A stretch of DNA of 64,000 nucleotides, taken from assembly GCA_026991575.1 (NCBI GenBank), contig JALXBF010000183.1:32653-96652 (forward strand), given 5' to 3'. The translations under genes were made by a program, and so were the position numbers. Below, piece by piece: positions 11,450 to 29,358 of the stretch (the first letter of the stretch is position 1; the number at the start of each line of letters is the position of its first letter). The notes beneath the pieces are model-generated. The model was not told where the DNA came from and did not search any database. It was given only the letters and a program-made list of their open reading frames with translations. The stretch is from Planctomycetota bacterium (lineage in GTDB: Bacteria > Planctomycetota > Planctomycetia > JALXBF01).

Positions 11450-11821
11450 AAATCCTCCCCATGCGGGGAATGTGTACTCTTTTCCGTTACCCGTAGTAAT
11501 GCTATCGGGTGCAAACCAGGTGCCATACTGCGCCGACCGATGGGGCAAGTTCCGGACGTGCTGCCGGTTCACGGGGTTGCATCGATCATCCGGCAACCGC
11601 CGCTGCCAGCGGTACGCACTTAACCCGATGGGCCGCCGCTGCCGGGACGATCCACCGTTCACCGCGTGAGGCCAACAGCCGCGCTGCGCGTGGGCTCGTC
11701 GTGCCGGGTGGAGCCGATGGTCCTGGGAAACCGCCGCGAGCGTCGCGGCGAGCGTATCCTGCGCGCGGCGCTGCGCCCTCAGTTAGACTACCGCCAACGC
11801 GTCACAGGAGGAGCCTTCCCA

Positions 11822-18458: not shown

Positions 18459-18894
18459 AGGCGGCTGGGCCCCTGTGGCACTTCGGCCTCGGCAGCGCTC
18501 GAGTGTCCACGGCTGCGTGGTGGCTTTTCCCGGTAGAACTCCGCGCACGAGGGCTGCACCTGTTTTCGCGGGCGGAACTCCTGCCCCCGCGCACGCTTTG
18601 CCCGTTGATCCCTTGCCGCGTTGGCAGAAGGAGCAGGGACTACGATATAGTGGTGGATCGGATGACTTGCTGACCGTTGTGGGAGTGGGCGGCACGTGGT
18701 GCCGTCGGGCCAATGCCTGCCGGTGTCGGTTGTGGGCGCTGCGGTCGATGAGGTGGCCAGCAGCTGATGGTGCTGTCGGGGGTGGCCGGGCGGTCGGTCG
18801 ACGGTCTAGCTGGGATCAGGGCAGGGAACGTTGAGCATTGGCAGGGCGGCGGTCGGGCCGATGTCGTCAACGACTGCACTCGGGAGCCGGATCG

Positions 18895-19266
18895 ATGGAC
18901 GAGGATTCGGTGGAACAGCTCAAGAGGCTTTTCTTGCCGCGGACGTTTGCCAGCAGCCGAACGTGGACGCCGCCGGTAGATGTGTATCGCACGCCAGTAG
19001 GCTGGGCGGTGAAGCTGGATGTTGCCGGCGTGCGGCTGGAGGACATCTCCTGGCAGATTGAGGGGAACCGGCTGGTGGTGCAGGGGGTCAGACGGGACAT
19101 ATGCGTGCGTCGCGGCTGGCAGGTGTATCAGATGGAGATCGCGTACGCGCGCTTTCGCCGGACGGTGGAGCTGCCCTGCGATGTCAGCCAAGCGACGGTA
19201 CGCGTGGAGCAATACGAAGGCATGGTCGTGTTGATCCTGGAGTGCACGCGCGAGGCGGAAGGATGA
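18895..19266 (+). CDS. Hsp20/alpha-crystallin family protein
   Basis: 'PPVDVYRTPVGWAVKLDVAGVRLEDISWQIEGNRLVVQGVRRD...FRRTVELPCDVSQATVRVEQYEGMVVLIL' matches the alpha-crystallin domain pattern. Start ATG at 18895. Confidence 0.8.
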   Translation: MDEDSVEQLKRLFLPRTFASSRTWTPPVDVYRTPVGWAVKLDVAGVRLEDISWQIEGNRLVVQGVRRDICVRRGWQVYQMEIAYARFRRTVELPCDVSQATVRVEQYEGMVVLILECTREAEG

Positions 19267-21662
19267 GCAACGAAACCGGTGCGGAACGAAGCCAGCAAGA
19301 GCGGAGCCCCAGCGCGCTGGAGCCCGGTGCTCAGATGACGCTCCCGTTGCTGGCCGTGAAGAACACGGTGCTGTTCCCCTACCTGTTTCTGCCGCTGTCG
19401 GTCGGACGTGCCAAATCGGTTGCTGCGGTGGAGCAGGCAGTGGCCAGCGAAGACAAGACGCTGGTCGTTGTGAGCCAGAAGAGTCCGGACGTGGAGACGC
19501 CCGGACCGGACGACCTGCACCGCGTTGGGACTCGGGCAGTGATCAAGAAGCTGTCCCGCGCCGATGGCAGCATGGAGCTACTGGTCCAGGGGATTGATCG
19601 TGTGCGGATCCTGGCGTTTACCCGCGAGGAGCCATATCTGGAGGCGCGCGTCGAGCTGCTGCCAGTGCCGGCGGGCGAAGGCCCTGAGGTGGATGCCCTG
19701 TATCGGGAAGTCGAGGCGGCGGCACGGCGCATCGTGGAGCTGTCCCAACCGGAGGTCCAGCAGCATCTGATCCAGATCATCCAGCAGGCACCGAGCCGTA
19801 TCTGGCTCGTGTACATGCTCGGCTCGATGCTCACGCTGGACACGGACAAAGAGCAGGCGCTTCTGGAGGCGGATACGCTGAAGGACGCCCTGGAGCTGCT
19901 GCTGCGGTACCTGAACGAGGAGATTCAGATCCTTGAGCTACGCCGCAAGATCGCTGAGCGTGCACGCTCGGAGATGACCAAGGAGCAGCGCGAATACATG
20001 TTGCGCCAGCAGCTGCGGGCGATCCAAGAAGAACTGGGCGAGACTGCGCCGGAACTGGAGGACCTGCGCAAGCGAATTGCCGAGGCAGACTTACCGGAGA
20101 ACGTGCGGACCGAAGCCGAGCGCGAGCTGAGCCGACTGGAACGGATCCCTACCGCCTCACCCGAGTACCAGGTCGTGCGCACCTACCTGGAGCTGATTGT
20201 TGAGCTTCCCTGGAACAAATCCACTCAGGACAACCTCGACATTGAGCACGCGCGGCGGGTTCTCGACGAGGACCATCACGACCTGGAGCGCGTCAAGGAA
20301 CGGATCCTGGAGCACCTTGCCGTCATGCGGCTCAACCCACAGGCGCATGGCCCCATTCTCTGTTTCGTCGGGCCCCCTGGTGTGGGGAAGACTTCGCTCG
20401 GACAGTCAATTGCGCGTGCGCTGGGGCGGAAGTTCGAACGAATGAGCCTTGGAGGGCTACACGACGAGGCCGAGTTGCGCGGTCACCGCCGCACGTACGT
20501 CGGAGCGATGCCCGGTCGTATCATCCAGGCAATCCGGCGGGCCGGAGTCAACAACCCGCTGCTTATGCTCGATGAAGTGGACAAGCTCGGTCGTGACTTC
20601 CGCGGAGACCCGGCGGCTGCTTTGCTGGAGATCCTCGATCCGGCCCAGAACCACTCCTTCCGCGATAACTACCTCGACCTGCCGTTCGATCTGTCCCGAG
20701 TGTTCTTCATCTGCACGGCGAACACGTTGGACACGATCCCGCGACCGCTGCTTGACCGGATGGAAGTGCTTCGGCTGGCGGGCTACACGCCAGAGGAGAA
20801 GCTGGTCATTGCCCGCCGCTACCTCATCCCGCGCCAGCTTAAGGAGACCGGCTTGCCAGCGGAACTGGTGGAGCTGCCCGATGAGACAATCCGGGCAATC
20901 ATCATGCGATACACGCGTGAGGCCGGGGTGCGCGAGCTGGAGCGGACTATTGGCCGGGTGTTTCGCCGCGTGGCGGTAAAGGTCGCCGAAGGGCGACGCG
21001 AGCGGACGGTCGTTCGTCCGGAGGACTTGACCGAGTACCTGGGGCCGGAGCGGTTCGCCCCAGAGCAGCTGCGCCGGAAGCTGCCGCCGGGCGTGGTACC
21101 GGGATTAGCGTGGACGGAGTACGGGGGCGAAGTGCTTTACGTGGAGGCGGTGTTGCTGCCGGAATCGGAGGGCGTGCGGCTGACCGGCTCGCTAGGCGAA
21201 GTGATGAAGGAGTCGGCGTATGCGGCGTACAGCTACGTCTGGTCGCGTGCGGAACGGTACGGCCTTGATCCACGGCAGCTCAAACGCAGCGGTGTCCACA
21301 TCCACGTGCCTGCTGGTGCGGTGCCGAAGGATGGCCCGTCGGCCGGCGTTGCCATGCTCACCGCCATTGTCTCTGTGCTGACCGCAGTGCCCGCGGACCC
21401 ACTGACAGCAATGACCGGCGAAATTACCCTGAGCGGCCTGGTGCTCCCGGTGGGAGGGATCAAGGAGAAAGTGTTGGCCGCGCACCGCGTGGGGATGAAG
21501 CGGGTGCTGCTGCCCGAGCAAAACCGATCCGATCTGGAGGAGATCCCACAGGAGGTACAGGAGGCGATCGAGTTTGTCTTTGTCTCCGAAGTCGAAGATG
21601 CGTTGCGCGTGGCATTGCCGGGACTGGCCGACAGACTGACCGTGGCCGGTGCACAGCCGTAG
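19263..21662 (+). CDS. lon: ATP-dependent Lon protease (endopeptidase La)
   Basis: N-terminal LON domain 'LPLLAVKNTVLFPYLFLPLSVGR'; Walker A GPPGVGKTSLGQSIARALGRKF; PKDGPSAGVAMLTA; LPVGGIKEKVLAAHRVGMKRVLLPEQNRSDLEEIP. ATG at 19263 overlaps the hsp20 stop (ATGA). Confidence 0.97.
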   Translation: MSNETGAERSQQERSPSALEPGAQMTLPLLAVKNTVLFPYLFLPLSVGRAKSVAAVEQAVASEDKTLVVVSQKSPDVETPGPDDLHRVGTRAVIKKLSRADGSMELLVQGIDRVRILAFTREEPYLEARVELLPVPAGEGPEVDALYREVEAAARRIVELSQPEVQQHLIQIIQQAPSRIWLVYMLGSMLTLDTDKEQALLEADTLKDALELLLRYLNEEIQILELRRKIAERARSEMTKEQREYMLRQQLRAIQEELGETAPELEDLRKRIAEADLPENVRTEAERELSRLERIPTASPEYQVVRTYLELIVELPWNKSTQDNLDIEHARRVLDEDHHDLERVKERILEHLAVMRLNPQAHGPILCFVGPPGVGKTSLGQSIARALGRKFERMSLGGLHDEAELRGHRRTYVGAMPGRIIQAIRRAGVNNPLLMLDEVDKLGRDFRGDPAAALLEILDPAQNHSFRDNYLDLPFDLSRVFFICTANTLDTIPRPLLDRMEVLRLAGYTPEEKLVIARRYLIPRQLKETGLPAELVELPDETIRAIIMRYTREAGVRELERTIGRVFRRVAVKVAEGRRERTVVRPEDLTEYLGPERFAPEQLRRKLPPGVVPGLAWTEYGGEVLYVEAVLLPESEGVRLTGSLGEVMKESAYAAYSYVWSRAERYGLDPRQLKRSGVHIHVPAGAVPKDGPSAGVAMLTAIVSVLTAVPADPLTAMTGEITLSGLVLPVGGIKEKVLAAHRVGMKRVLLPEQNRSDLEEIPQEVQEAIEFVFVSEVEDALRVALPGLADRLTVAGAQP

Positions 21663-24213: not shown

Positions 24214-25617
24214 TCAGGACAGGTTGTACTCTTTGATCTTGCGCTGCAGCGTCCGAAGGCTGATGCCTAGCAGGCGGGCGGCCTCGGTACGTTTCCCTTT
24301 GGTGAACTCGAGCGTGCGTCGGATTGCTTCCCGCTCTAGCTCATCCATCGTCATGCCCGGACGGAAGATATCGTTTCCGACACTGTGGGTGGAGCGGATG
24401 TGTTCTGGCAGGTCGGACACCTCGATGCGGTCGCCTTTGCAAAAGACGATCACGCCTTCTAGCGTGTTGCGCAACTCACGCACATTGCCGGGCCATGGAT
24501 ACCGCATCAACACCTTCATCGCTTCCGGGCTTACTTTCAAGGGGGGACGACCAGCATCGTCGCAAATCTCACGGACGAAGTGGTCGACCAGCAACGGGAT
24601 ATCCTCGATCCGCTCACGCAGCGGAGGCAGGTAGATCTCGGCGACACGTAATCGATAGTAAAGGTCCTCGCGGAACTTTCCTTCCTTGACCCGCTCAGCG
24701 AGGTCCCGGTTGGTAGCGGCCACCAGGCGCACGTCGACGGCGATCTCCTGAGTGCTCCCAACCGGCATGATGCGCCGGGTCTCGACAGCACGTAGCAGCT
24801 TGGCCTGGGCTCCCGGTGGCAGCTCGCTAACCTCGTCAATGAACAACGTGCCGCCGTCGGCTGCCTGGAACAGCCCCTTCTTCCTGGCTACTGCTCCGGT
24901 GAATGCGCCACGCTCGTGACCAAACAGCTCGCTCTCCAGCAACGACTCCGGAATGGCCGGGCAGTTGACCGGGATGAACGGCCGGTCAGCACGATCACTG
25001 TTGGCGTGGATTGCCCGGGCAACCAACTCCTTGCCTGTGCCACTCTCCCCGGTAATCAGGACCGTTGCCCGCGTGGGAGCCACGAGCTTGATCTGCTCAA
25101 AGACGCGCTGCATGGCCGGCGAGCAGCCCACGAGCATTCCGAAGCGGGCTTGCTGCTGGACCTGGTCCCGTAGGGCGGCCAACTCCAGTGCGGTAGCCCT
25201 CTCGCGCAGACCCCGCCGGACCCGCTCGACGAGCTCGTCCAAGTTGACCGGTTTGGTCAAATAGTCCAGTGCACCTTCGCGCAACGCGGCCACCGCCGTG
25301 TCGACCGTCGCATGCCCGGTGATCAGGATCACCCCGATGTGAGGCGCGTTCTCCTGGACGTAGCGGAGCAGATCCAGACCGCTGCCGTCGGGCAACACCA
25401 GATCCGTGACGATCAGCCCAACCCTGTCAGGGAGCTCGGCCACCGCTGCCTTGTAGCTGTCCGCCACGACAACGTCGAATCCTTCCAACTCAAGAAACTC
25501 GGCGATGCTTTCCCTGCTGGTCGGATCGTCCTCGACCAGCAGCAGCTTCCAGTTGCGCGGGATGCCATCGGCCGCGCGTGCCTTCTGTTCAGCCGGTTCG
25601 GTGTGATCCAACGTCAT
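24214..25617 (-). CDS. Sigma-54-dependent response regulator (NtrC family: receiver, AAA+, Fis-type HTH)
   Basis: 'LLVEDDPTSRES...VGLIVTDLVLPDGSGLDLL...VILITGHATVDTAVAALREGALDYLTKPV'; 'GESGTGKELVARAIH'; GAFTGA motif; 'EAARLLGISLRTLQRKIKEY'. Confidence 0.95.
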   Translation of the reverse strand: MTLDHTEPAEQKARAADGIPRNWKLLLVEDDPTSRESIAEFLELEGFDVVVADSYKAAVAELPDRVGLIVTDLVLPDGSGLDLLRYVQENAPHIGVILITGHATVDTAVAALREGALDYLTKPVNLDELVERVRRGLRERATALELAALRDQVQQQARFGMLVGCSPAMQRVFEQIKLVAPTRATVLITGESGTGKELVARAIHANSDRADRPFIPVNCPAIPESLLESELFGHERGAFTGAVARKKGLFQAADGGTLFIDEVSELPPGAQAKLLRAVETRRIMPVGSTQEIAVDVRLVAATNRDLAERVKEGKFREDLYYRLRVAEIYLPPLRERIEDIPLLVDHFVREICDDAGRPPLKVSPEAMKVLMRYPWPGNVRELRNTLEGVIVFCKGDRIEVSDLPEHIRSTHSVGNDIFRPGMTMDELEREAIRRTLEFTKGKRTEAARLLGISLRTLQRKIKEYNLS

Positions 25618-26342
25618 CGGTTAGCCGGTTGCTCCGCTGCTTGTGTCATCACTTGCCCGGCCACGGGCAACCATAGCCGGAAGATCGTACCACGGCCTTC
25701 TTCGCTTTGCACCTCGATCCGTCCGCCCATCTCGTCGACCGCTTGCCGAACGATGGCCAGTCCCAGACCCGTACCTCCCGGCTTGGTGGAGAAGAACGGC
25801 TCGAAGATCTTTTCCTGGATCTCCTTTTTCATGCCCTGACCCGTATCCTGGACTTCCACGAGCACACCCTCATCGCATGCAGGCCGGATGCGCACCGTGA
25901 GGCGGCCACCGTCAGGCATGGCTTGCTTGGCATTCAGCACCAGGTTGAGCAGCACGCTACGCAGCCGATCGCGGTCGGCCCGCACCGGCGGTACATCGGG
26001 GGATATGTCCTGTACCACCTCCACCCGGCTTTGCTGCAGGTCCAAGGACACGAAGTCGAGCACTTCGGAAGCGATCTGGCAAACGTCAACCGGTTGAAGC
26101 GTACTGCGATTCGGGCGGGCGTACGTCAAGAAACTGTGGAACAGGCTGTCCAGGTCCACGATCAACCGATCCAGCGTGGCCGTGTGCCGTTCGATCCCCT
26201 GAGCGTTCGAGGCGACCTTCTTCTTCAGCAAGGCAAGCTGGGCACGCATAGCGTTAAGTATGTTGCGTGCCTCGTGCACGAGCTTGGGCGCAAGTTCCTT
26301 AAGGCTGTCGTCACGGCCCACTTGGCCTATGGTGTCCGTCAT
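25614..26342 (-). CDS. Two-component sensor histidine kinase lacking an obvious sensor domain
   Basis: H box 'LVHEARNILNAMRAQLALLKKK'; 'LLNLVLNAKQAMPDGGRLTVRI'; 'VEVQDTGQGMKKEIQEKIFEPFFSTKPGGTGLGLAIVRQAVDEMGGRI'. Overlaps the regulator by 4 bp. Confidence 0.92.
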   Translation of the reverse strand: MTDTIGQVGRDDSLKELAPKLVHEARNILNAMRAQLALLKKKVASNAQGIERHTATLDRLIVDLDSLFHSFLTYARPNRSTLQPVDVCQIASEVLDFVSLDLQQSRVEVVQDISPDVPPVRADRDRLRSVLLNLVLNAKQAMPDGGRLTVRIRPACDEGVLVEVQDTGQGMKKEIQEKIFEPFFSTKPGGTGLGLAIVRQAVDEMGGRIEVQSEEGRGTIFRLWLPVAGQVMTQAAEQPANR

Positions 26343-26534: not shown

Positions 26535-26942
26535 TCAACTCTGGCTCTCCTGGGCAAGCAGCTCCCGGACCAGCAATTGGGCGATCGCTTCCAGCTGGTG
26601 GCCATACACGGTGATGTATCGGGTAACCCCCGACAACATCAACTCCTGTAGCAGGCAGCCCCGCGTGGCTTGTTCCCGGACGAGAGCGATTACCGGGAGA
26701 TGTCCCCCAAGGACGTGGCGCAGATGTCTGACCCACGCCAGCTGAGCGGCGGCAACCGGGGCGTCGATATGGATGATGGCACCGTCCAGGTCGGTGAACG
26801 CCGCACTGAGCGAATCAGGATGCTCGCCAATCGGTACACGGCTAACGATCTGGACTTCACAGCCGAAGCTACTCAGCCGGCTGCAGAGGTGCGCCGCTAC
26901 AGTCGTCTTGGGATCGCACAACAGCAGGATGCGTCGTTTCAT
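26535..26942 (-). CDS. Degenerate receiver-like (pseudo-response-regulator) protein
   Basis: Start ATG at 26942 preceded by GGAG. 'MKRRILLLCDPKTTVAAHLCSRLSSFGCEVQIVS...GAIIHIDAPVAAAQLAWVRHLRHVLGGHLPVIALVREQATRGCLLQELMLSGVTRYITV' has receiver-like periodicity but lacks the usual conserved T/K residues. Confidence 0.5.
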   Translation of the reverse strand: MKRRILLLCDPKTTVAAHLCSRLSSFGCEVQIVSRVPIGEHPDSLSAAFTDLDGAIIHIDAPVAAAQLAWVRHLRHVLGGHLPVIALVREQATRGCLLQELMLSGVTRYITVYGHQLEAIAQLLVRELLAQESQS

Positions 26943-27174
26943 CGTTCTCCGTGCATATTGCGCCTGGCACACGGACTGCGAGCGGCCGCGGCCCCCGTGC
27001 GGACCCGGTGCGTAACACGCCCCTTGAGCGCCTCTAGCGGTAGGCCTATCGGCTCCCGGCTGTTGCTGGCCATGACGTCTTGTTTGGACCCAGCGACTAC
27101 TACCAGCCATTTCCCGACGACGCGTCGGCGTGCGGTGTCCTGGTAGCTTGCCCTTGCCGGCTGCCCAAATGCAA

Positions 27175-27199
27175 GAGGCGCAGGGCGTCCCTGCGCCTC
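27175..27199 (-). terminator. Weak terminator-like hairpin after the hsp20 array
   Basis: Perfect 11-bp stem GAGGCGCAGGG-CGT-CCCTGCGCCTC 3' of the 27253 stop on the minus strand; only a weak T-rich tail (TTGCATTT). Confidence 0.5.
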
Positions 27200-27252
27200 C
27201 GGTGATTGCTTGGGCGACGGCGACCGTTCTTCGTTGCCGGCTCCGGATCGGC

Positions 27253-27726
27253 TTACTCGGCCTTGACCAGGACCTTGCGTCCGCGGGCCTCTTCGGGCTT
27301 CTTCTTCACGTGAACCTCCAGCACGCCCCTGTGGTAACGGGCCTCTGCCTGTTCTGGATCAATTCCTGGCGGAAGCGTGATCACGCGGCGAACCACGCCG
27401 TAGCGGCGATACTCACCGGTGCCACGCTTTGCTTCCTCGCGCCGTTCGGCCCGTACCGTGAGCAGGTTTCCGGAGAGCCGGACATCGAAATCCTCCGGCT
27501 CAAAGCCCGGGGCGTCAATACGGACCACCACCTCATCGTCGCGGTCCTCCAGGTCAAGGCCCCAGCGCCAGTCAAACCACGGTCCGACCAGCTCGCGCCG
27601 TTCCAGGAACCGGCCGAAGAGCCGGTCGATTTCGTCGCGAAGACGCACCAGCGGTTCTAGTTCGGTTGCCACCGGCTCGTGAGCCTTCTGACTACGCCGC
27701 CTTCTCCACGGAACCAGCGCAAACAT
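27253..27726 (-). CDS. Hsp20/alpha-crystallin family small heat shock protein
   Basis: 'WGLDLEDRDDEVVVRIDAPGFEPEDFDVRLSGNLLTVRAERREE...YGVVRRVITLPPGIDPEQAEARYHRGVLEVHVKKKPEEARGRKVLVKAE'; SD GGGAGGTGAGCC-ATG. Confidence 0.92.
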   Translation of the reverse strand: MFALVPWRRRRSQKAHEPVATELEPLVRLRDEIDRLFGRFLERRELVGPWFDWRWGLDLEDRDDEVVVRIDAPGFEPEDFDVRLSGNLLTVRAERREEAKRGTGEYRRYGVVRRVITLPPGIDPEQAEARYHRGVLEVHVKKKPEEARGRKVLVKAE

Positions 27727-27831: not shown

Positions 27832-28227
27832 TCAGCCGGTCTTAACCGGGATCCGGCGCGGCTTGGCCTCAGCGGCCTTTGGCAGGTGCACGATCAGCAC
27901 GCCGTCTCGATACTCGGCGTGGATCTTATCAGGGTCGACGTCCTCGTACACGACGAACGTGCGGACGTAGTCGCCCACGCCGTATTCGCGGAACAGGTAG
28001 TCTCGCTGCTCGTCAGCCTCATCCACCCGGCCGTGCACGGTCAGCTCACCGTTCTCGAAGCGGATATCGATCTTTTCCGGGTCGAGGCCGGGCATGTCTG
28101 CGTAGATCCGCAGTTCTTCGTCCGTCTCCAGGATGTCGACCAGCGGCGTGTAGGCAACACCGCCACGGGTGCGCTCAGGCATGAGCACACCACTTGTTGG
28201 AACCTTCGTCGCCAGTTCCCGTGCCAT
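27832..28227 (-). CDS. Hsp20/alpha-crystallin family small heat shock protein
   Basis: ORF 27832..28329; preferred start 28227 (MARELATKVPTSGV). 'YTPLVDILETDEELRIYADMPGLDPEKIDIRFENGELTVHGRV...YVRTFVVYEDVDPDKIHAEYRDGVLIVHLPKAAEAKPRRIPVKTG'. Confidence 0.93.
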   Translation of the reverse strand: MARELATKVPTSGVLMPERTRGGVAYTPLVDILETDEELRIYADMPGLDPEKIDIRFENGELTVHGRVDEADEQRDYLFREYGVGDYVRTFVVYEDVDPDKIHAEYRDGVLIVHLPKAAEAKPRRIPVKTG

Positions 28228-28325
28228 GGCTGTCTCCCTCCTTTTTCGGTCTGTAGTGTCCCGACCGACGGTTCCCGGCCCGGGCTCTTCGCCCGGGCCC
28301 AACGGCGTTCGATCCAGCCGGCCGA

Positions 28326-28799
28326 TCACTCGGCCTTCACCGGGATCTTCCGGGCACGAGCCGACTCGGCCTTCGGCAGCCGAATTCGCAGCAGACCGTT
28401 GTGCAGCGTAGCCTCGACCTTCTCTGCGTCGACCTCAACCGGCAAGGTAATCACCCGCGTGAACGACCCGAACATACGCTCACGCCGGTGCCAGGTTCCC
28501 TTTTCGACCTGCGGAGCTTTCCGCTCGCCGCGAATCGTCAGCTGGTTATCCCGGGTCACGTAGATCTCAATGTCCTCAAGCGCCATGCCCGGGAGCTCAG
28601 CCTCCACGTAGAGCGCCTCGTCGTCCTCCCAGATGTTCAGCGGCGGAAAGCCCGCGCTGAGCCGTGGCCACGCCGCACTCTCGAACAGATCCAGGCCGAA
28701 GTCGCGGAAGATCCGGTTCACCTCACGCTGCAGGCGATTCATCTCCTGCCAGACGTCAGGCAGCGTGCCGCTGAATGGCTCCCAACGCGTCAGATACAT
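28326..28799 (-). CDS. Hsp20/alpha-crystallin family small heat shock protein
   Basis: 'PPLNIWEDDEALYVEAELPGMALEDIEIYVTRDNQLTIRGERKAP...GSFTRVITLPVEVDAEKVEATLHNGLLRIRLPKAESARARKIPVKAE'; SD GGGAGGTGGAGCC-ATG. Confidence 0.94.
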   Translation of the reverse strand: MYLTRWEPFSGTLPDVWQEMNRLQREVNRIFRDFGLDLFESAAWPRLSAGFPPLNIWEDDEALYVEAELPGMALEDIEIYVTRDNQLTIRGERKAPQVEKGTWHRRERMFGSFTRVITLPVEVDAEKVEATLHNGLLRIRLPKAESARARKIPVKAE

Positions 28800-28874
28800 G
28801 GCTCCACCTCCCGTCTGAGAACCGACACCCCAACGGAACTGCCACCGACCACCGACTGCTCGCCCGGTGAATCT

Positions 28875-28891
28875 TGCAACGTGCGTGCCAG
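28875..28891 (-). promoter_or_regulatory. Sigma-54 (RpoN)-type -24/-12 promoter of the tandem hsp20 array
   Basis: Minus strand reads CTGGCACGCACGTTGCA, matching YTGGCACG-N4-TTGCW exactly (GG-N10-GC), about 75-90 bp upstream of the hsp20 ATG at 28799. Confidence 0.72.
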
Positions 28892-29118
28892 ACCGGGGCC
28901 GAGAGGGTTGCGGTATGTCCGTGTAAGTGTTTTCCTGGAAATAGGTTGCGTGAGGAACGCGCCGCGGGCCCGTGCGGACGGTGGAAGTAACGCGAGCGTT
29001 GGTGACAAGCTGTCTGGCATCGTGTCAGTTTGTCGGCGCGAACAGGGCTACTCCGGCGCGATAGGATGCTGTAGAGCTGGCCGCTGTCGTCGTTAGTGTG
29101 GCCGTTCGGGGATTGGGT

Positions 29119-29358
29119 ATGACAGACGGATTGCCCGGCGAACTTGGCAAGTTGTTGATCGGAGTCGGCCTGGTGCTGGTTCTGCTCGGCCTAGTCTTTC
29201 TGGCAGCCGGGCGCCTAGGTCTGGGACGGCTGCCCGGCGACATCATCTGGCGCCGAGACAACGTCACGATCTACTTTCCTATCATGACGTCGCTGATCCT
29301 CAGCCTGCTGCTGACGCTGCTGCTGTGGATCATGCAGAGCTTCTCGGGGCGTTCCTAG
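29119..29358 (+). CDS. DUF2905 small membrane protein
   Basis: 'LGKLLIGVGLVLVLLGLVFLAAGRLGLGRLPGDIIWRRDNVTIYFPIMTSLILSLLLTLLLW' matches the DUF2905 pattern (GxLPGDI, yFPi.tsillS). Confidence 0.88.
   Translation: MTDGLPGELGKLLIGVGLVLVLLGLVFLAAGRLGLGRLPGDIIWRRDNVTIYFPIMTSLILSLLLTLLLWIMQSFSGRS

Follow-up and report, generated by a model that had tools for sequence, protein, structure and literature searches.

The DNA analyzed here, called the window, is a 64 kb stretch (64,000 nucleotides) that carries three tandem hsp20 genes on its minus strand. Downstream of them on the same strand lie the genes for a small pseudo-receiver-like protein, a soluble histidine kinase, and an NtrC-type response regulator, while a -24/-12 element and an enhancer-like palindrome lie upstream of the array (Table 1). 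A DUF2905 gene (29119-29358, plus strand) is divergent from the array and borders the same intergenic region as the palindrome. Gene content and relatives point to a planctomycete origin of the window.

Table 1. Features of the hsp20 locus, in window coordinates
Feature	Position	Strand	Description
Enhancer-like palindrome	29014..29028	.	minus-strand reading CTGACACGATGCCAG; center 131 bp upstream of the -24 element
Sigma-54 -24/-12 promoter	28875..28891	-	CTGGCACG-CACG-TTGCA; exact consensus; shuffles 0.00005; kept before hsp20 in relatives
First hsp20 gene	28326..28799	-	157 aa; PF00011, E=6.8e-23
Second hsp20 gene	27832..28254	-	140 aa; PF00011, E=3.2e-21
Third hsp20 gene	27253..27726	-	157 aa; PF00011, E=2e-17
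Strong RNA hairpin 3′ of the array	27175..27199	-	11-bp arms, no U-run
Pseudo-receiver-like protein	26535..26942	-	135 aa; no Pfam match; between array and kinase
Soluble histidine kinase	25614..26342	-	HATPase_c, HisKA; no recognizable sensor domain; 4-nt overlap with the next gene
NtrC-type response regulator, candidate activator	24214..25617	-	REC, sigma-54 AAA+ with GAFTGA, Fis-type HTH

The array is separated from the regulatory genes by a 310 bp gap and by the strong hairpin, whose surroundings (27150-27220) fold with -39.7 kcal/mol (z=-4.0). This hairpin may be a terminator, an attenuator, or an mRNA stabilizer. Because of the hairpin and the gap, it is not certain that a single operon runs from hsp20 through the activator gene. 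A further hsp20-like gene (18837-19266, plus strand) is divergent and lies directly upstream of or overlaps lon (19101-21662). It has no sigma-54 site, in contrast to the array of the same window.

The -24/-12 element before the array

An earlier note on this DNA had proposed a consensus sigma-54 promoter before the array, about 75-90 bp before the ATG at 28799, aimed at all three genes. The minus strand from 28891 to 28875 indeed reads CTGGCACGCACGTTGCA, an exact match to YTGGCACG-N4-TTGCW with GG-N10-GC spacing. With both strands counted, the window has no other copy of the full consensus. The site is positioned 75-92 bp before that ATG and is oriented toward the three Hsp20 genes, with a predicted transcription start at about 28864-28866. 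When the 319 bp intergenic region is shuffled, the full consensus appears in 0.005% of shuffles. The looser core TGGCACN5TTGC has two exact copies in the window, the second of which (11511-11525) falls within a 799-codon open frame, and exact cores occur 43 times genome-wide compared to 29 for a reversed control pattern. This enrichment is mild, so the core alone is weak evidence, and position and conservation carry the case.

The absence of rpoN, which the earlier note had named as speaking against its proposal, does not apply, as the genome encodes one copy (single PF04552 match, E=1.9e-61). Consensus with correct spacing, an encoded rpoN, and a palindrome within roughly 80-200 bp upstream are thus all found together. 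By all of the sequence tests applied, the -24/-12 element before the hsp20 array is a real sigma-54 promoter.

Conservation of this element was examined among relatives that are of the same class at closest. The search for hsp20 loci covered 39 genomes, that of the window among them, and 60 hsp20 regions from this set were scored with an approximate sigma-54 matrix made for this analysis. Of the leading hsp20 genes, 29/62 score at least 12. That score is reached on the opposite strand in 2/62 cases, by 0/35 inner hsp20 genes, and by 2/354 of the remaining genes in these regions. This contrast between leading and control genes indicates that the sigma-54 match is not due to chance. With starts corrected, a site scoring at least 11 is found in 29 of the 37 genomes that have hsp20 loci, and these 29 include all seven families. 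The GG-N10-GC element, whose conservation the earlier note had suggested checking, is therefore found before hsp20 clusters in every family examined. A strong sigma-54 site is missing at about 40% of the relatives' hsp20 loci.

A palindromic enhancer-like motif and the genes it marks

When the 250 bp before each of 36 hsp20 promoters were searched de novo for dyads, CTGCCA-N3-TGGCAG emerged far above shuffles. The refined class motif is (C)TGYCA-WWW-TGRCA(G), also written (C)TGYCA-N3-TGRCA(G). The dyad occurs 60-200 bp upstream of 29/37 strong promoters, compared to 2/18 weak ones (Fisher p = 4e-6) and 0.5% of shuffles, and nine promoters have at least two copies. Consistent helical phasing was looked for in the enhancer-promoter distances and was not found. 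Exact CTGNCA-N3-TGNCAG sites number only six in the genome, and the palindrome of the window is among them (shuffles 0.0003). It is a variant whose two variable positions hold A and C, bases that the motif matrix places at 1-2% of class sites. By the shuffles it is a good dyad, with imperfect class specificity. The palindrome is presumably bound by an activator. Since rpoN is present, the -24/-12 element occurs in all seven families, and the palindrome stands at the right distance, sigma-54 control of the window's hsp20 array is strongly supported at the sequence level.

The palindrome also leads to other chaperone genes. When the strict palindrome was searched across the 39 genomes, blind to genes, 22 of the 42 sites examined had a sigma-54 promoter 74-151 bp away, compared to 5.6% of random positions (binomial tail 4e-17). 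All 22 of these pairs point into hsp20, dnaK, groES, groEL, or htpG, and the Pfam identities of representative targets are HSP70, Cpn10, Cpn60, and HSP90. Because the discovery set contained only hsp20, the result for dnaK, groES, groEL, and htpG is largely independent support. The strict sites that have no sigma-54 promoter are mostly in or near unrelated genes, and none adjoins an activator gene.

The same arrangement is repeated within the genome of the window. A sigma-54 site with a palindrome upstream precedes dnaK (locus L022; GTGGCACCGTTTTTGCAA, with TTGCCACATTGGCAT 91 bp upstream), grpE (L029; GTGGCACAAAATTTGCAG, with CGGCCAGTTCGGCAG 118 bp upstream), and groES (L312; ACGGCATGCATGTTGCAA, with CTGCCACTTCGGCAG 124 bp upstream). 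Contig C88 carries a second hsp20 gene, whose sigma-54 site is accompanied at best by a degenerate palindrome. Among 110 genomes of the wider phylum, the sampled groES promoters from outside the class mostly have no promoter/palindrome pair, with G057, G096, G129, and G135 as exceptions. This rarity indicates that the arrangement is mostly a class trait.

Other exact sigma-54 sites of this genome (loci L002-L031) include those before an apparent glutamine synthetase gene (L002) and an apparent kinase gene (L007), as well as two divergent sites 214 bp apart (L003/L004).

It could be argued that the sigma-54 match before the array is chance or decaying sequence and that an ordinary sigma-70 family promoter transcribes these genes. 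The frequency of the bare core in the genome, only mildly above its reversed control, favors such a chance match, which is nonetheless very unlikely given the full consensus, its position, its conservation in seven families, and a palindrome linkage far beyond shuffles. Moreover, no sigma-70-like hexamer pair was found in the promoter region, by a search that is not diagnostic for sigma-32, and this disfavors an ordinary promoter. RNA thermometers and HrcA/CIRCE are common means of control in other bacteria, and one or the other might mainly set the heat response, leaving sigma-54 a basal role only. Both mechanisms were considered and rejected here. HrcA is not encoded (no PF01628 match in the genome), no element like CIRCE is present in the groES promoters sampled, and the genome's own groES promoter is at least 9 mismatches from CIRCE. 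For a thermometer of the ROSE or FourU kind, the stretch 25600-29400 matches no Rfam family at E≤1, and the fold of the hsp20 leader is unremarkable (z=+0.63), so the leader is not unusually stable. A merely basal role for sigma-54 is thus highly improbable.

Candidate activators

The earlier note had assigned control of the array to the adjacent NtrC-type activator. This gene is present on the same strand, and its product matches PF00158 (E=2.9e-72, with GAFTGA), PF00072, and PF02954, so that by domain content it is a genuine sigma-54 activator. It fails the NCBIfam equivalog cut-offs for AtoC (432.8 vs 714), ZraR (410.1 vs 760), and NtrC (421.6 vs 558.6), and the models nearest to the kinase are AtoS and ZraS, also far below cut-off. 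The 135 aa protein encoded between the array and the kinase has an AlphaFold model of alternating β and α elements (pLDDT 71), with Foldseek matches to receiver domains (nearest TadZ, PhoB, and HP1043), and probably folds like an atypical receiver domain.

In E. coli, the ZraPSR and AtoSC systems combine a kinase with an NtrC-type regulator, and the chaperone gene ZraP, which adjoins its regulators, is under sigma-54. The kinase and regulator of the window resemble these systems in scoring best to AtoS/ZraS and AtoC/NtrC/ZraR. They differ in that both are far below the equivalog cut-offs and in that the kinase has no recognizable sensor domain. In addition, Hsp20, a cytosolic protein, has no relation to ZraP.

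The kinase/regulator pair is tentatively the best local activator candidate. It may be a private activator that acts on the variant palindrome, apart from a class-wide regulator. The pair lies directly downstream of the array on the same strand and has the GAFTGA motif. The pair is paralogous to a widespread one from which it has diverged, with the recognition helix ISLRTLQRK instead of IGERTLYRK, and the palindrome of the window is likewise changed, at its two variable positions; the altered helix and the altered palindrome together suggest a private circuit. The genome's other sigma-54 hsp20 locus, on C88, is also about 3 kb from a kinase/NtrC pair. On the other hand, the relatives' hsp20 clusters do not adjoin NtrC-type genes, isolated cases excepted, and the pair is cut off from the array by the hairpin and the gap. 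A private circuit is therefore possible, at less than even odds. A different candidate is the widespread response regulator itself, encoded here on C88, which could bind the palindrome as the general heat-shock activator. It has a near-invariant recognition helix (IGERTLYRKIKEY), each of the 39 genomes searched has a clear best match to it, and here its gene is about 3 kb away from a sigma-54 hsp20 gene. Yet it also occurs in many genomes of other classes that have no groES palindrome (G040, G070, G118, G104, G060), whereas G057 and G129 have the palindrome and only weak matches to the regulator, which makes this role unlikely. The presence of the widespread regulator does not follow that of the groES palindrome, and the relatives' hsp20 clusters do not adjoin such genes, so neither regulator can be assigned.

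Two further approaches to the activator were tried and set aside. A search by co-occurrence led to the dropping of the IGERTLYRK regulator, which is phylum-wide without tracking the groES palindrome. Self-regulation was rejected because the best regulator and kinase homologues have no composite site, save for a marginal one at L159 and one in G033, where the kinase gene happens to adjoin hsp20. This histidine kinase gene of G033 (L102, 5884-6669, minus strand) lies directly upstream of an hsp20 gene with both the sigma-54 site and the enhancer, and no partner regulator for it was found in 11.5 kb. The IGERTLYRK regulator is recorded phylum-wide (L110, 8624-11174; loci L252-L281 and L352-L380). 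Its gene adjoins a kinase gene in many genomes of the class, and in the genome of the window it lies after a polynucleotide phosphorylase-like gene and before a mutL-like gene.

A proposed sigma-54 heat-shock regulon

The best reading of the promoter is wider than the earlier note proposed, namely membership in a regulon with a dedicated enhancer. With an estimated probability of about 0.8, the array is one part of a heat-shock regulon under sigma-54 that spans the class and shares a dedicated enhancer. Of the local circuit that the note had proposed, the promoter and rpoN are in evidence, and an enhancer-like palindrome can be added. The part assigned to the adjacent activator fares less well, as the arrangement is class-wide and the relatives' hsp20 genes are usually not beside an NtrC-type gene.

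The output of sigma-54 is normally set by its activator. In the proposed mechanism, RNA polymerase with sigma-54 would transcribe the array from the -24/-12 element, and an enhancer-binding AAA+ activator would sit at the palindrome 131 bp upstream. The bound activator would loop to the closed complex and open it by ATP hydrolysis, with protein-folding or heat stress as the trigger. The members of the regulon would be hsp20, dnaK, groES, groEL, and htpG, plus grpE in this genome, and (C)TGYCA-N3-TGRCA(G) would be their common enhancer. That sigma-54 transcribes these chaperone genes, and that heat is the inducing signal of the regulon, are both inferred. A fuller scheme is offered at a little under even odds: an activator-driven regulon of DnaK, GroES/GroEL, HtpG, GrpE, and Hsp20 with one enhancer would replace sigma-32 and HrcA across the class, and in this lineage a duplicated kinase/regulator pair would have been captured beside hsp20 with its own altered enhancer.

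Heat induces ClpB, GroEL, DnaJ, GrpE, Hsp20, DnaK, and Cpn10 in Rhodopirellula baltica, where neither rpoH nor rpoN changed on heat; a “significantly different response cascade” is what the study deduced (PMC2754498). The induction of these chaperones speaks for the proposed regulon. The lack of heat regulation of rpoN in this species is a point against it, though one weakened by the usual control of sigma-54 output through the activator. The earlier note had called the circuit unusual. That it is a local oddity is only partly supported, since dnaK, groES, groEL, grpE, and htpG share the arrangement, and there are precedents. The E. coli small heat-shock gene ibpB is transcribed by sigma-54, according to work cited in PMC4370416; ibpAB is also transcribed by sigma-32, and the sigma-54 signals here differ in reaching the main chaperones too. 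For Planctomycetia, predicted sigma-54 promoters have been described as enriched for IbpA, GroEL, GroES, GrpE, DnaJ, and DnaK (PMC12316311, 2025). That prediction is at the level of orthologous groups; its relevant passages give no enhancer for the chaperone group, and neither “UAS” nor “upstream activat” occurs in its text. Relative to those passages, the palindrome, its spacing, and the operon are additional here. In Chlamydia trachomatis, a member of a related superphylum, hrcA-grpE has tandem sigma-66/sigma-54 promoters and atoC is up on heat shock (PMC8762339). HrcA controls the sigma-66 promoter there; the genome of the window has no HrcA. The literature searched, which did not cover Studholme and Dixon 2004, holds no report of the enhancer palindrome or of the kinase/regulator linkage.

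The findings suggest that the whole group turns on heat shock through sigma-54 and not through the textbook regulators. A regulon under sigma-54 that has one defined enhancer would be a concrete, testable answer to how planctomycetes control heat shock, and the enhancer motif (DNA TGCCAAAATGGCA) could serve as bait for finding the heat sensor. If true, it would mean that a further general design of heat-shock control exists, based on an ATP-driven enhancer protein, beside the alternative sigma-70 family factor and derepression.
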